NCBI GenBank assembly: GCA_031262165.1
Contig: JAISIF010000038.1
Span: forward strand, 1 to 41,401
Length of the DNA: 41,401 nucleotides
Direction of reading: 5' to 3'
Origin: Myxococcales bacterium
Lineage (GTDB): Bacteria; Myxococcota; Myxococcia; Myxococcales; UBA5297
Shown here: positions 21,351 through 28,503 of the stretch, one piece after another
Layout of the letters: the number at the start of each line of letters is the position of its first letter
Numbering within the stretch: position 1 is the stretch's first letter
Made by a program: the position numbers and the translations under genes
The notes under the pieces: generated by a model
The model's database searches: none
What the model was told of the DNA's origin: nothing
Seen by the model: only the letters and a program-made list of their open reading frames with translations

Positions 21351-21387
21351 AATAGGGTCGCGATTTATCGCGGCCTCTATTTTTTTG
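21351..21387 (+). terminator. Intrinsic terminator after the flavodoxin gene
   Basis: AATAGGGTCGCGA pairs with TCGCGGCCTCTATT across a TTTA loop, with one bulge and G-T pairs, and is followed by seven Ts. It ends the transcript from the flavodoxin gene and possibly from the zinc cluster upstream. Confidence 0.8.
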
Positions 21388-21398
21388 AATGAATCAAA

Positions 21399-21425
21399 TA
21401 GGGCGCAATGAAGCGCGCCCCTACG
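21399..21425. repeat. GGGCGC-type palindrome ending in CCCCTAC
   Basis: GGGCGC and GCGCCC-like arms surround AATGAA, and the right end reads CCCCTAC. The same CCCCTAC / GTAGGGG edge recurs with other palindromes at 33166-33188, 33364-33387, 38200-38223 and 38271-38292. It is one member of a dispersed palindromic family. Confidence 0.55.
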
Positions 21426-21460: not shown

Positions 21461-22309
21461 CTAATGATCGAGGGCCGGGGACTCGTCGCCCACTTTCAGA
21501 CAGAAAGCGCGAAAAACCCCTTCCATCATGTCTTGGCCACTCGTGGCGCCCAGTCGTTCGAGGCGATCGATGGCTCGATCGAAAGCAGACTCATCGAGCT
21601 GTTCATCGGCCAGCGCGTGAACGAAATCGCGCAATGCCTCGGGGTAATAGCCAAAGGAGGCATTCCAGAGCATGTCGATGGAGGTGCGCGTGGTCCGAGT
21701 GATTGGAATCTCTCTGAATTCGGCATGCAATCGAGCTTTGGCATTTTCGAAGAAAGGCATCGAATCGAGCGCTGCCAATAGTCCGGTCAACAGATCGTCA
21801 CCCGTGGGCGTCGAGCCGATTCCAAGGCCGACGATCGAATCGGACAGGCGGTTTGAATCCGAAAAATCATTCGAGCGAATTCGGCGGAGGATGTCTTGGA
21901 AGCGCTCGGAGATCTTTTGACGAGTGAAATCGCGTTCGAACGAATCGATTCTCGATCTGATCGATTCGATCTTTCGAGAAATCCGTATCGAATCAAAATC
22001 AAAATGAACCGGTCCCATCGAGAGATCGACGCCTTCTCCAGTCAAATCAGCACAGTGAAGCGTGATCGTCTCCCCGACCCGCCGCGCCATCGACAGATCG
22101 TCGAGCACGATGCCCAGCGGCACGAGCGAGCGAGCCGGATGCAGCAGCACAATCGACCTGCCGATGCTTGGCCTCGGCGCAAAAAAAGAGGCGGCGGGTT
22201 GGGCATCCACCACCTCTGTGACCACGGCGTGTGTGTGGATCGCTTCGATTCTGAGGGTCAGTGACTCGCTCAGAGAGAGGGCGAGTCTGGAGTCGAAGCG
22301 GCGATACAT
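21461..22309 (-). CDS. DUF2877 (AllH-like) protein
   Basis: The 282-residue protein has the DUF2877 signatures: LGIGSTPTGDDLLTGLLAAL in the middle and LGATSGQDMMEGVFRAF near the end. DUF2877 includes AllH, part of the oxamate carbamoyltransferase complex in allantoin (purine) breakdown, usually with FdrA/AllF-type subunits, which are absent here. The ATG follows the stop of the DUF4276 gene by one base (TGAGATG), with GGAGGG just before, so the two are translationally coupled. A carbamoyltransferase-like or nucleotide-related function is the family-based guess; a xanthine dehydrogenase-type enzyme is encoded 2 kb away. Confidence 0.75.
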   Translation of the reverse strand: MYRRFDSRLALSLSESLTLRIEAIHTHAVVTEVVDAQPAASFFAPRPSIGRSIVLLHPARSLVPLGIVLDDLSMARRVGETITLHCADLTGEGVDLSMGPVHFDFDSIRISRKIESIRSRIDSFERDFTRQKISERFQDILRRIRSNDFSDSNRLSDSIVGLGIGSTPTGDDLLTGLLAALDSMPFFENAKARLHAEFREIPITRTTRTSIDMLWNASFGYYPEALRDFVHALADEQLDESAFDRAIDRLERLGATSGQDMMEGVFRAFCLKVGDESPALDH

Positions 22310-22310
22310 C

Positions 22311-22940
22311 TCAACCCTCCATCAAGCCGTCCAAGCACTTCGTCAGCTCTCGAAACGAAGCGCAGCGCTCCATCACGAGGTTCGGGCGGACGCGCTTCAA
22401 GAGCTCGCTGGCATGCCTGATCTTTCCGTAGGCGCCTTTTTTTGTGTTCTTCGTGGCTGCTTCGAGCGCTCGATACAGGCTGGCCTTCGTTGCCTCGTCG
22501 AGCAGTAGTCTTCGTGGGAGCGGATTCCTGTTGAACTTCTGGCCGTAGAACTCTTCGAGCTTGTCGGGATCGGCGACGAGCCAGGCCTCCATGCACTGAG
22601 TCATGAGGTGAACGTGGTTCGCGTCGATTCTTGGAAAGGTCCAGGAAGAATCGCGTCTCTTGAGATGATCGATGCGCCCTTGCGGCGATGGGTTGGCGAC
22701 TGGGGCTTCGGCATCGACGAGAAGCAGGACGACGTCGTCAGCGCTTCGTCTCTTCAGCGCGGCCTCAAAGCCTTGAAAGGCCTTGTCGCGTCCGCCGCAG
22801 AGCACGGTCTTCCAGTGTATCCTGTGCTGGCGAGCAGCGGCCTTCTGCGCTGACAACAGCTCATCGAAGCCCTGGCGCAGCTGACTGTGTTCTGCCGCAG
22901 TGTTGCCGCCGCCTTCGACATAGAGCGCGATGCTCTTCAT
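22311..22940 (-). CDS. DUF4276 family protein, probable nuclease-like partner of the AAA ATPase
   Basis: The 209-residue protein starts SIALYVEGGGNTAAEH and continues with DDVVLLLVDAEAP. The VEG and LVDxE motifs resemble the acidic motifs of TOPRIM folds, as in OLD-family nucleases and DUF4435. Other conserved stretches are HLMTQCMEAWLVAD and FNRNPLPR. Its ATG overlaps the stop of the AAA ATPase gene by four bases (22937-22940). ATPase plus DUF4276 pairs recur in many bacterial genomes and look like anti-phage modules comparable to PARIS (ATPase plus DUF4435). The nuclease activity and defence role are inference. Confidence 0.8.
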   Translation of the reverse strand: MKSIALYVEGGGNTAAEHSQLRQGFDELLSAQKAAARQHRIHWKTVLCGGRDKAFQGFEAALKRRSADDVVLLLVDAEAPVANPSPQGRIDHLKRRDSSWTFPRIDANHVHLMTQCMEAWLVADPDKLEEFYGQKFNRNPLPRRLLLDEATKASLYRALEAATKNTKKGAYGKIRHASELLKRVRPNLVMERCASFRELTKCLDGLMEG

Positions 22941-24115
22941 GGGTTGCCTCCGAGTTCGCCCATGAGCCACAGGTCGCCGAGTCGGTATTGGTCGAGCCAA
23001 TGGCTCAGGTCATCGGTGCTCAGGCGCCGAAGCCGGGTGCCTCCGAGGTGCTCACACACGAGCACCGATTCGATGTGATCGGTGAGCGCGGAGACCAGCG
23101 CATCCGAGTGCGTGGTGACGATGAGCTGCGTGCGCTCGCTCGCTGCCACGAGCAGCTCTGCCACGAGCGAAACAGCGTCGGGATGCAGGCCCAGCTCAGG
23201 CTCCTCGATGCACACGAGCGGTGGCGGGTTTGGAGAGAGCAGGAGCGCGCTCATGGCGAGGAAGCGCATCGTGCCATCAGAGAGGCGTGTGGCGGGCACG
23301 GGTGCCTTGATCCCCTCTTCGTGCAGGAAAAATTGCACGGTCCCGGCCTGCACGAGCGTGCTCACGCGCTGGAGGCGCGGGAGAAACCGCCGCAGCATGG
23401 CGTCGAGCTTGGGGCCTGAATCCGTGTGTTCGAGCTGGTTGAGGATGAGCCCCAGGTTGCGTGCATCGGGCAAAAGTCGGTCGGTCGGCAGATCTGCGGG
23501 CTGCGGCTGGCGGAGCGCGGTGTAGCGGCCAAAGCTCCACTCGCGGAAGGTCTGGATGCGAGCAAACTCACGCGCGCACCAGGTGAGCTCTGGATAGAGT
23601 TCAGGGTCCTTGCGCTGCGACAACACGGATTCGTCCGCCAGGAGGCTCTCGCGTTGAAGGTGCCGCTCTGTCCGCTCGCCATCCCATCTCTCGCAGACGT
23701 TCAGCACCGGCCGACCATTCTGGAAGCGGTAGTAAAAATAGACGTCCTTTTCGTCTGACCGGTGTTTCTCGGCCTCCTCGATGGCTTCGTCGATGATTTC
23801 GGTGCGTGGTCCAGAGGCAGCGAACTGAAGCCGATAGCGCAGCGAGCTCTGTGATTCTCGGCACAGGCGAGCGTCGAGCGTTGCGTGGGCAGGAGAAGAG
23901 CTTCCTTTCCAGAGCCATTCGCGCACACCGCCACCATCTCGAATGGCGGACGCGAACGCCGTCGCTGTCGCGCGCAACAGCTCGATGGCCTCGATCAGGT
24001 TCGATTTGCCTGAGCCGTTCGGTCCGATGACGACGTTGAGCGGTTGGAGCGGAATTTCCGGCGCTTGCGGCGCGAAGGAGAGAAGGCTGTCGAGCCGTAG
24101 GGATTCGATGAACAT
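22937..24115 (-). CDS. AAA family (AAA_21, SMC/ABC-like) ATPase
   Basis: The 392-residue protein opens with LRLDSLLSFAP and Walker A GPNGSGKS (31-38), then a middle insertion of about 240 residues with charged, coiled-coil-prone segments. The C-terminal half carries an ABC-type signature (RLSDGTMRFLAMSALLL), Walker B (LVCIEEPELGLHPDAV) and the His-switch TTHSDALVSAL. This is the RecF/OLD-like class common in overcoming-lysogenization, PARIS and related conflict systems. It should work with DUF4276, which overlaps its stop. The start is ATG 24115, only 10 bases from the repeat element end; a clear ribosome site is lacking, so the element may have altered its leader. Confidence 0.88.
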   Translation of the reverse strand: MFIESLRLDSLLSFAPQAPEIPLQPLNVVIGPNGSGKSNLIEAIELLRATATAFASAIRDGGGVREWLWKGSSSPAHATLDARLCRESQSSLRYRLQFAASGPRTEIIDEAIEEAEKHRSDEKDVYFYYRFQNGRPVLNVCERWDGERTERHLQRESLLADESVLSQRKDPELYPELTWCAREFARIQTFREWSFGRYTALRQPQPADLPTDRLLPDARNLGLILNQLEHTDSGPKLDAMLRRFLPRLQRVSTLVQAGTVQFFLHEEGIKAPVPATRLSDGTMRFLAMSALLLSPNPPPLVCIEEPELGLHPDAVSLVAELLVAASERTQLIVTTHSDALVSALTDHIESVLVCEHLGGTRLRRLSTDDLSHWLDQYRLGDLWLMGELGGNP

Positions 24116-24125
24116 GGTCTCATTC

Positions 24126-24286
24126 TTAGGACCTATCCCTCAATTATCCCGTCGCTCCGCTCGTCCGTGAAACGCCAGCCTTCGTTGCTTCGTTGGTCAC
24201 TTCCGTCTGGAAGCTCCCTCCTCGCGCCTCGTCTGGCACTCCACGTCCTTCGCGTTGCTCGGTCCTAATCGATGGATAAATCCTGA
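24126..24286 (+). mobile_element. MITE-like dispersed repeat, copy B (161 bp)
   Basis: It begins TTAGGACCTATCCCTCAATT and ends GATGGATAAATCCTGA. The interior matches copies A and C over most of its length, including the shared CGTGAAACGC and TTCGTTGCTTCG segments. One inverted end has diverged by a few bases. It lies immediately upstream of the AAA ATPase start, separating that operon from the molybdenum hydroxylase genes, and is followed by the CCCTCTCC hairpin at 24291-24318. Confidence 0.8.
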
Positions 24287-24368: not shown

Positions 24369-26704
24369 CTACTTCTCTGCCTTCTCGCGCAGCGCCTTCA
24401 GGACCTTCTCTGCCGTGATGGGCATGCTGTCGATGCGGATGCCGCAGGCGTCGAAGAGCGCGTTCGCAATGGCTGCTGGCGTTGGAATCATCGTGTGTTC
24501 GCCCACGCCGCGCGCGCCGAGCGGTCCGTCTGGCTGCGGCGTCTCCACGAAGCTCGCCTCCATCTCGTCTGGGATGTCGAGCGCCGTCGGGATCTTGTAG
24601 TCCATGAACGAGGCGTTTTTGGGCGCGCCCGTGACGGGATCGAGCACGAGCTCTTCCATCGTGCCCGTGCCCACGCCCTGGACCATGCCGCCGAATGCCT
24701 GGCCACGAATCATGCCGGGGTTCACGACCTGGCCCACGTCGTAGCAGGCGACCAGGCGATCGATGTGGATGGCGCCCGTGTCTGGATCGACCGTGATGTC
24801 CACGCCCTGCGTGCCAAACGTCCAGGTGGCGACAGGCTTCTTCGACTGGCTCGTCTCTGGGTCGAGGAAGAGAAGCCCCTCGGGCACGAAACACTTGGCC
24901 GATGCGATTGGCCCGCCGATCGTGTGGCCGTCGCCGAACTGAAAGCCCATGACGAGCGACTCGTAGCTCAGCGCACGGTCGCTCTGGCGGTCGATGACCT
25001 TGCAATCCTTCAGGTAGAGCCGCTGGGCGATCTCGCCTGTCGGGATGTCGAGCGCCTGCGCCGTCATTTGGAAGAGTTGATCGCGACAGTCCTCGGCCGC
25101 CTTGAGCACCGCGTTGCCCGTGGCAAACGTCTGGCGCGATGCCACTGTCTGCCAGTCGTAGGGTGACAGGTCGGTGCGCGGTCGCATCCGCACGCGGATC
25201 TTCTCCATGGGCAAGAGCAGCACCTCGGCGGCGTATTGCGCGGCGACCGTGGCGAGGCCCTGGCCGATGTCCGTTCCAGAGATGAGGATCTCCAGCGTCT
25301 CGTCCTCGGCGAACTTGAGCACCACCGACGAGGCCGCGTTGTTGGGCATCGACGGCGCTTTGACCGCACAGGCGATCCCGCGGCCCTTGAAGGGCGAGCG
25401 CTCAGCGCGCGGTCCCATGGCCTTGGCAACTTCCTCCAGGCACAGGTCGATGCGGCCCGATCCCTCTTCGAGCACCTGGCCTGTCACCGTGGTGCGGCCC
25501 GGCTTGAGGCAGTTGATGAGGCGGAACTCGACTGGGTCCATGCCGAGCGCATGAGCCACGCGGTCCATCTGCTGTTCGAGCGCCCAGTGGATCTCCTGCA
25601 TGCCGAATCCGCGGTAGGCGCTGCCGACCGGCTTGTTCGTGTAGACGCCGATGCTGTCGCCCTCGACGTTTGGGTAGCTGTAGGGGCCGCCGCACGTGTA
25701 GCCAGCCGCGCGCACCACGTTGACGCCGTAGCCGCCGTAGCCGCCGCAGTCCCACAGGTAGTGGATTTTCTGCGCCTGGATGCGGCCATTCTCATCCACG
25801 CCGCTGACGAGCGAGGCTGTGAGGGCTTGACGGACCACCGTGGCGTAGAATTCCTCGCTGCGCGTTGCCTTGATTTGGACTGGGCGACCGTTCGTGCGCA
25901 TGGCGAGTGCGACGGCGATGGGCTCTAGATTGATGCCCGCCTTGCCGCCAAAGCCGCCACCCACGGTCGGCACGATGACCTCCACGTCGCCGTGTGACAG
26001 GCCAAAGCAGGCACTGAGCAGGTGACGGACGGTGAAGGGGCTCTGGGCCGAGGTGTGGACCTCGACGCGACCCGCGTTGTCCACGCGTGCGACCGAGATG
26101 TGCGGCTCCATGGGCACGTGCTGCACCTGTGGGACGCTGAACGTGTTCTCGAAGACGTGTTTGCACTTGGCGAGTGCGCCTGCGTAATCGCCTTTGCGCA
26201 CCTTGAGGTGATTGCAGATGTTCGTGCCTGGCTTGGGCGTGATCCACGACTCGACGAGGTATTTGTCCATGTCCGGGTGGACGAGCGGCGCGCACTCTTT
26301 GATGCCATCGAGCACGCTCAGCACTGCGGGCAAGGGCTCGTAGTCGACCTCCACCAATGCGGCAGCCTCGGCGGCAGCCTCGGGCGTCTCGGCAGCGATG
26401 GCAGCGACTGGATCGCCCACGAATCGGACGCGGTCGATGGCAAAGATGGTCTGGTCCTTCAGGTAGATGCCCGTGTGCAGCGGGAAGTCATGGCCGGTCA
26501 CCACGGCGCGCACACCTGGGACGGCCCTGGCCTTCGCAACATCGACACGCTTGACGAGTGCGTGCGCGTGCGGCGAGCGCACGACGTGTGCGTGGAGCAT
26601 CCGGTGGAACTTGAGATCGCCCGTGTAGAGCGCAGCGCCTGTCACCTTCTCGACGCCATCGACGCGCAGCGGCGCGTGGCCCACGACATTGTGTTTTTTC
26701 GTGT

Positions 26705-26708
<4 letters not shown>
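24369..26708 (-). CDS. Xanthine dehydrogenase-family molybdopterin-binding subunit
   Basis: This 779-residue subunit carries the molybdenum cofactor and the active site of a molybdenum hydroxylase that oxidises a purine, nicotinate or aldehyde-type substrate. The N-terminal a/b-hammerhead domain (GVEKVTGAALYTGDLK) is followed by the cofactor domains: PTVGGGFGGKAGI, GSAYRGFGMQE, SGTDIGQGLATV and the catalytic Glu in GARGVGEHTMIPTP. No truncation is visible. Its ATG overlaps the stop of the 2Fe-2S gene (26705-26708), so the subunits are coupled. The family motifs do not decide between xanthine and other substrates. Confidence 0.93.
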
Positions 26709-27196
<488 letters not shown>

Positions 27197-27213
27197 CTGG
27201 ATGTCCTTTCTCG

Positions 27214-28056
27214 TCAGGCAGTGACGGCAGCGAGGCCGCGCAGAGTGAGGGCGAAGACCATGGCGCGGCGGTAATCGGCTGTGCCGCGCGCATCGCTGAT
27301 CGGGGTGGCGGTATCGCGGGCAATGGCAGCGGCCTCATCGATGGCGCTTGGTCCCTGACGATCGAGCAGCGCTTCAGCTTGGGGAACTCGAAGTGTGCGA
27401 GGCGCCACGGCCACCAGGCCGATTCGGTATTTCGATGCCGCATTGCCACCGTGCGTGGTGAGCACGGCAACCGTTGCCAGGTCCATCCCGCGACGGCGCG
27501 ACAGGCGGTTGTAGCTGGCCTTCATGCCAGAGGTGGCAGCGGGCAGGCGGATGGCGGTGATGATTTCGTCGCTCGCGCGGGCGGTCTTGCCTGGGGCGAT
27601 GAAGAACTCGGAGAGCGGGATGAGGCGCTCGCCGCGCTGGCTGACGGCAACGGCCAGAGCATCGAGGCACAGGAGCGCGACGGAGGTGTCGGCAGCAGGC
27701 GAGCCATTGCACACGTTGCCAACCACGGTGGCGCGGTTGCGCAGGGCGTATGCCCCGAGCTCACTGGCGCACTTGACGAGCGCTGGGTAGCGCGCCTGGA
27801 CGAGCGCGTGCCGACAGACATCCGAGATGACCGCGGTGGCGCCGATCTCGAGACCGCCGTCGTCGGTTTCGGCGATGGCGTCGAGTCCGGGAATCTTCTT
27901 CAGATCGATGACACGCTCGACTTTGAGGCGGATGCGCATCTGGGCGATCAGGTCTGTCCCACCGGCCATGAACCGGCTGGAGATGCCTTCGTTTGCCAGA
28001 GCGAGAGCCTCGTCGATCGAGCGCGCGGCACGGTAGTCAAAGTGTGGCAGCAGCAT
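27214..28056 (-). CDS. Molybdenum hydroxylase FAD-binding subunit
   Basis: The 280-residue subunit binds FAD and transfers electrons to NAD+ or another acceptor. It shows FMAGGTDLIAQMRI (FAD pyrophosphate loop), GATAVISDV, RNRATVVGNVCNGSPAAD (second FAD loop) and the C-terminal CO-dehydrogenase flavoprotein region. The start at 28056 was chosen because GGAG lies 6 bases upstream and the sequence then begins like other members (LLPHFDYRAARSIDEAL). An in-frame TTG at 28086 preceded by GGAGGAGGG is a possible alternative. It is the first gene of the three-gene operon. Confidence 0.93.
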   Translation of the reverse strand: MLLPHFDYRAARSIDEALALANEGISSRFMAGGTDLIAQMRIRLKVERVIDLKKIPGLDAIAETDDGGLEIGATAVISDVCRHALVQARYPALVKCASELGAYALRNRATVVGNVCNGSPAADTSVALLCLDALAVAVSQRGERLIPLSEFFIAPGKTARASDEIITAIRLPAATSGMKASYNRLSRRRGMDLATVAVLTTHGGNAASKYRIGLVAVAPRTLRVPQAEALLDRQGPSAIDEAAAIARDTATPISDARGTADYRRAMVFALTLRGLAAVTA

Positions 28057-28094
28057 GTGCGCTCCGAGGTGAGGGGTGAATGGCAATGAAAAAT

Positions 28095-28122
28095 CCCTCC
28101 TCCAAAACTCGGGTGAGGAGGG
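28095..28122 (-). promoter_or_regulatory. Terminator-like hairpin in the leader of the molybdenum hydroxylase operon
   Basis: On the minus strand CCCTCCTC (28122-28115) pairs with GAGGAGGG (28102-28095) across 12 bases, followed at once by ATTTTT. This is an intrinsic terminator form located about 40 bases upstream of the first gene. A second CCCTCCTT (28135-28128) lies just before and could pair with the same GAGGAGGG. The two alternatives would allow attenuation. The stem also covers a Shine-Dalgarno-like GGAGGAGGG. The rest of the gap (28123-28503) holds no supported gene. Confidence 0.5.
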
Positions 28123-28503
28123 TTTGAAGGAGGGCTGCTTCGAGAAGCCGGATAGTCTCCAACGGCGAAATGCGTGATTGCAATTGAAGAAAGTAAAATT
28201 TCGGATTCCGAGCGGCGCCACCTTGCCTCGATTCAACGAGAAGGCGACGTCGCCCGCGATCGTGCCGAATGGGCCAATGGCTGGAGCAGCCGGACCGTCG
28301 ATGCCTGTGCCGACAGAAGGCAGCGCCTCTGTCGTGGGCTTTCAAATTCGAGGCTTGCGCGATGAATCTCGTTTCATCGAACCCATGTCGCAGCAGTGCC
28401 GAGCGTGCTCGGTATCGCTGGAGAGAGACGCGGATGTCGTGCGAGTGAAGGCCGCACCGCAGCACTCTCCTCCTGACCAACTCCTCGAAATTTCCGAGCC
28501 GCC

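Follow-up and report, generated by a model that had tools for sequence, protein, structure and literature searches.

The combination of an ABC ATPase with a TOPRIM protein recurs in the OLD, Gabija, AbiL, MADS and PARIS systems (PMC12409363). In PARIS, the ATPase AriA senses infection and frees AriB, a TOPRIM tRNase (PMC12409363). The Salmonella version of this system sits inside a BREX island (PMC11341690), and a back-up effector role in BREX has been described for OLD ATPases linked to TOPRIM (PMC12839542). In Escherichia coli metabolism, AllF, AllG and AllH (encoded by allF-allG-allH, formerly fdrA-ylbE-ylbF) make up oxamate carbamoyltransferase, all three genes being needed together for the formation of oxamate (PMC11326118). 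Relatives of both assemblies lie side by side in a stretch of 41,401 nucleotides from a Myxococcales bacterium (contig JAISIF010000038.1), hereafter the window. The reading that we favour, with a probability of about 0.85, is that two unrelated functional units share this stretch: a candidate defence pair, HEC-01, inserted inside an operon for purine catabolism and working by the mechanism proposed below.

An earlier note on this DNA had proposed a new defence or nucleotide-sensing module of three genes, coding for an ATPase, a DUF4276 protein and a DUF2877 protein. The three open reading frames are all present on the minus strand as it had described them: the ATPase gene (24115..22937, 392 aa) overlaps the DUF4276 gene (22940..22311, 209 aa) by the four nucleotides ATGA (22937..22940), through which the two would be translationally coupled, and a single base separates the TGA stop of the latter from the ATG of the DUF2877 gene (22309..21461, 282 aa). 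The claim that the pair was a new system had to be given up: the first two genes are HEC-01 (Hma-embedded candidate 01), already catalogued as a candidate in PADLOC-DB, of which the window holds a further member. The ATPase belongs to the Pfam family AAA_21 (1.5e-39) and matches the HEC-01A model PDLC04177 at 1.3e-161 over residues 1-391 of 392; its partner belongs to DUF4276 (2.4e-23) and matches the HEC-01B model PDLC04201 at 2.2e-64 over residues 1-207 of 209. Both proteins therefore fit the catalogued system over their full length, in the same order and with the same gene overlap. What sets the window copy apart is its place, inside a xanthine-dehydrogenase/AllH operon and not beside defence genes. 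The product of the third gene had zero matches in the PADLOC HMM library.

The ATPase and its partner travel together. The DUF4276 alignment, run against one genome per species (84,980 species), recovered 80 loci, spanning Proteobacteria, Acidobacteria, Planctomycetes, Cyanobacteria, Latescibacterota and others. An ATPase of the HEC-01A type lies immediately 5' of the DUF4276 gene, on the same strand, in 79 of the 80; in the remaining one the contig starts about 150 bp ahead of DUF4276. The overlap of the two genes is of 4 nt in 43 of the 80 loci and of 7 nt in 21 (64 together), a regularity that takes their coupling beyond chance. Judged by this gene order, the two genes have long formed a coupled unit. 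Two of the loci (L060 and L062) have a small gene directly 3' of HEC-01B, with a 4-nt overlap, which in L062 codes for a DUF2442 protein (1.5e-12). HEC-01A is missing from both same-genus genomes. Its closest homologues (65-70%) are found in beta-proteobacterial, Nitrospirae and planctomycete metagenome-assembled genomes, as against about 50% for genomes of the same order, and the fact that the best relatives stand outside the order suggests that HEC-01 was acquired horizontally. Searches of plasmids and phages with HEC-01A returned relatives only at about 25-30% identity, and no HEC-01B relative was confirmed among the viral contigs searched.

Some HEC-01 homologues are, to judge from their neighbours, nested in BREX loci. 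One of these (L126, 5332-14573) displays the gene order brxC - HEC-01A - HEC-01B - pglX; in a second (L129, 9300-13411) pglX comes directly after HEC-01B with a 4-nt overlap, in a third (L094, 10001-13106) it lies immediately 3' of HEC-01B, and in a fourth (L113, 10001-14773) it is nearby. In addition, 106 proteins neighbouring HEC-01 homologues match 63 PADLOC families, against 14 for 104 proteins located some 7-10 kb off, a rough comparison that counts families and not members, in sets unequal in total residues, and lends weak support. An ATPase with a DUF4276 partner could also be a housekeeping or DNA-repair pair of the OLD/RecF type. Some OLD-family ATPases do have roles outside defence, such as the archaeal Cran1 in the cell cycle (PMC12796447); the window copy has metabolic or transport genes for neighbours (Pfam) and no visible defence island around it; and the literature searched yielded no experimental test of HEC-01, be it a phage assay or any other report of activity. 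We nevertheless hold this explanation to be unlikely: the distribution of HEC-01 is patchy down to its absence from same-genus genomes, homologues are embedded in BREX operons, PADLOC families are more numerous near them than far from them, and the pair is catalogued in PADLOC. The earlier note's view of an ATPase with a TOPRIM-like partner as a defence-type layout is borne out by this catalogue match and by the BREX-nested homologues, and the assignment of the pair to a defence-type module is supported by the genomic company of these homologues.

What the two proteins may do can be approached from their conserved residues and predicted folds. In 42 HEC-01A homologues the Walker A motif GPNGSGKSN, the signature LSDGT, the Walker B motif CIEEPE and the H-loop TTHS are nearly invariant, and the AlphaFold2 model of HEC-01A (pLDDT 93) resembles, in Foldseek, the heads of SMC and Rad50, PtuA (of Septu and retrons) and OLD. 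The AriA model of PADLOC matches HEC-01A at 3.1e-37, against 1.3e-161 with its own model, and the AbiLi model matches it at 2.7e-21. As for HEC-01B, residues E9, D76, E118, W120 and K173 are invariant, and E78 nearly so, in 57 homologues. Its model (pLDDT 96.7) is a small alpha/beta fold with E9 after strand 1 (3-8) and D76-x-E78 at the end of strand 3 (69-76); the order of strands and helices is that of a TOPRIM domain, the acidic motif being DxE where the classical one is DxD. The TOPRIM-like nature that the earlier note had ascribed to DUF4276 is thus upheld by topology and acidic motif and less so by comparison with solved TOPRIM proteins, where the match is weak: Foldseek retrieved nothing significant among solved structures (best E 0.05), the OLD nuclease 6p74 aligning at a TM-score of 0.40 (E 0.16), and a search with the DUF4276 sequence matched none of the solved structures. 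The best fold match in the viral library BFVD is RloB-like (probability 0.99, TM 0.44, E 0.01). An alignment of the HEC-01B profile with an RloB profile, built from plasmid records (the viral contigs contained no RloB), places E9, D76-x-E78 and ME-x-W in register with P=0.0043, negative controls ranging from 0.31 to 0.86, with low hhalign probabilities and a weak profile similarity. Against OLD TOPRIM domains the motifs are also in register, at P 0.062, below significance. The TOPRIM assignment stays unproven, because the match to solved structures is insignificant and the hhalign probabilities are low; taken with the predicted fold, these alignments make HEC-01B a predicted TOPRIM-like nuclease, resembling RloB/AbiLii.

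Among described systems, AbiL (AbiLi/AbiLii) and RloA/RloB resemble HEC-01 in that a small protein comes after an ABC-type ATPase, its E, DxD/DxE and ExW motifs being in register; in a genome of the same order PADLOC labels RloB as AbiLii and its neighbour as AbiLi. The difference is that Pfam places DUF4276 and RloB in different families, and the RloB and AbiLii models of Pfam and PADLOC find no match in HEC-01B. PARIS likewise has the genes of an ATPase and a TOPRIM-type partner side by side, and both systems can sit in BREX loci (PMC11341690), but the effector of the window is a DUF4276 protein and not one of the AriB family. Membership of PARIS was rejected: no AriB model matches HEC-01B, which is recognized only by the HEC-01B models and, weakly, by an oligonucleotide-cyclase model. 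It is by analogy with AriA and AriB that HEC-01A is proposed as a sensor and HEC-01B as a nuclease, in a mechanism that is likely AbiL/PARIS-like, with an ATPase sensor and a TOPRIM-like effector. HEC-01A, an ABC/SMC-like ATPase of the OLD type, would oligomerise, keep HEC-01B inactive, and detect a phage-borne trigger. Once triggered, HEC-01B would act as a metal-dependent nuclease cleaving cellular or phage nucleic acid, with E9, D76 and E78 as candidate catalytic residues, perhaps together with E118 and K173, and this cleavage would halt infection as AriA/AriB does in PARIS.

The third gene belongs to another story. Its product is AllH (PF11392, formerly DUF2877; 2.9e-19, score 70 for a cut-off of 25 bits), a predicted subunit of oxamate carbamoyltransferase and the sole AllH encoded in the source genome. 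Upstream, on the same strand (28236..24369), and absent from the earlier note's account of the operon, are the three subunit genes of a xanthine-dehydrogenase-type molybdenum hydroxylase, and it is their position directly ahead that explains the presence of allH: the FAD subunit (27214..28236; FAD_binding_5, 3.7e-44, matching from residue 65, with an open reading frame that opens at a TTG at 28236 and a probable start at residue 61, whose ATG is at 28056), the 2Fe-2S subunit (26705..27196; Fer2_2, 7.7e-35) and the large subunit, of XdhA type (24369..26708; MoCoBD_1/2). The NCBIfam XdhA model matches the latter at 6e-156, below its curated (equivalog) cut-off, as are all the NCBIfam scores of this hydroxylase; it is 89% identical to its counterpart in a same-genus genome, G002. 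In the phylum, 13 of 195 genomes carry AllH, the window's own included, and in eight of the 12 others (G004, G061, G062, G063, G064, G065, G067 and G068) xdhA, allH, allF and allG are consecutive, in an operon where FAD, 2Fe-2S and large subunits precede allH, allF and allG (L023, 249-8200; L147, L148, L151 and others). In six of these eight, allH starts between -4 and +6 nt from the xdhA stop; G067 has a candidate start at -1, and G004 a larger overlap of frames. The corresponding distance in the window is +2059 nt, which the two HEC-01 genes occupy together with 253 nt of spacer. As in E. coli, the source genome has AllF and AllG besides AllH (an AllF-like gene, 46671-48194, adjoins AllG, 48688-49341, on contig C158), the difference being that allH is here apart from allFG, preceded by the defence cassette and by the genes for a molybdenum hydroxylase. 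By its conserved neighbourhood, allH is a member of an interrupted xdh-all operon and not of HEC-01. That operon, with the FAD, 2Fe-2S and XdhA genes of the hydroxylase followed by allH, would serve purine-type nitrogen catabolism, AllH working with AllF and AllG to convert oxalurate into oxamate and carbamoyl phosphate. Beyond allH, at 21355-21421, two terminator-like GC-rich hairpins face each other in the interval separating allH from a convergent flavodoxin gene; chance yields a similar number.

A genuine three-gene module, in which AllH would make, consume or sense a small carbamoyl metabolite on behalf of the ATPase-nuclease pair, could invoke the common strand, the ATGA overlap and the one-base spacing, as well as the fact that AllH is part of an enzyme whose chemistry involves carbamoyl phosphate (PMC11326118). 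This we consider extremely improbable. Translated searches (tblastn, E up to 1) found AllH beside HEC-01 in none of the 80 DUF4276 loci, and the AllH model, run in six frames over 1.33 Mb, in none of 85 HEC-01 loci (the 80 and five from the window's order), the window AllH being detected at 2.1e-84 as a positive control. AllH was not found on plasmids either. The gene is instead conserved with xdhA and allFG in eight genomes, and its E. coli counterpart needs allF and allG for oxamate formation (PMC11326118), which in the source genome lie elsewhere. DUF2877 is accordingly rejected as a defence partner, as the earlier note had itself foreseen should the gene not be conserved next to the pair. 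Of the tight spacing to which that note drew attention, it is the ATPase-DUF4276 overlap that recurs, and not the junction of DUF4276 with DUF2877; similarly, the inspection of flanks that it advised returns the ATPase and not the third gene.

How did HEC-01 come to lie there? Comparison with the uninterrupted operons makes entry between xdhA and allH the most likely event and places it where allH begins. The one-base gap ahead of allH would then arise because insertion fell right at a formerly tight xdhA-allH junction. The junctions of xdhA, HEC-01 and allH belong to a fragmented assembly and are known from the assembly alone, not from reads; direct repeats sought as bounds of the insertion were at chance level, and no target-site duplication was found. 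Between xdhA and HEC-01A, the spacer contains a palindromic interspersed repeat of 160 bp (24125..24284), with ends ACTTAGGACTTATCCCT.../...AGGGATAAGTCCTAAGT, of which the source genome has about 30-45 copies (84-96% identity) and the two same-genus genomes have none. Its consensus has nearly perfect terminal inverted repeats of about 23 bp and folds over its full length into one long hairpin (-90 kcal/mol); no target-site duplication was seen at the flanks of its copies. This repeat is MITE-like.

In G002 the xdh operon and allH are on separate contigs (L039, L022), allF is on a third, and AllG was not found. With allH off the xdh operon there, the operon was already breaking up in the genus, so that a move of allH beside HEC-01 is conceivable. 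It might be, then, that no HEC-01 insertion took place and that allH moved, during this break-up, next to a HEC-01 already resident 3' of xdhA; allF and allG are displaced in the source genome (G000) too. There is little probability in this scenario, which needs a chance return of allH to the same xdhA operon that it adjoins in eight other genomes and has to reckon with the lack of HEC-01 in both same-genus genomes, a single insertion being simpler. Following insertion, allH would probably be co-transcribed with HEC-01 and take no part in it. A functional capture of allH, by which switching on the defence operon would alter carbamoyl-phosphate or purine-nitrogen metabolism, or by which the xdh promoter would make HEC-01 responsive to purines (those released, were this true, from degraded nucleic acid), seems to us very improbable.

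A false lead is thereby removed, that of a three-gene nucleotide-sensing defence system, and the locus illustrates how a defence cassette that has inserted next to a metabolic gene can pass for an operon with it. HEC-01, which was catalogued and for which we found no characterisation, gains a testable mechanism, candidate catalytic residues and homologues nested in BREX, and in this phylum the xdhA-allH-allF-allG operon ties AllFGH to molybdenum hydroxylases.
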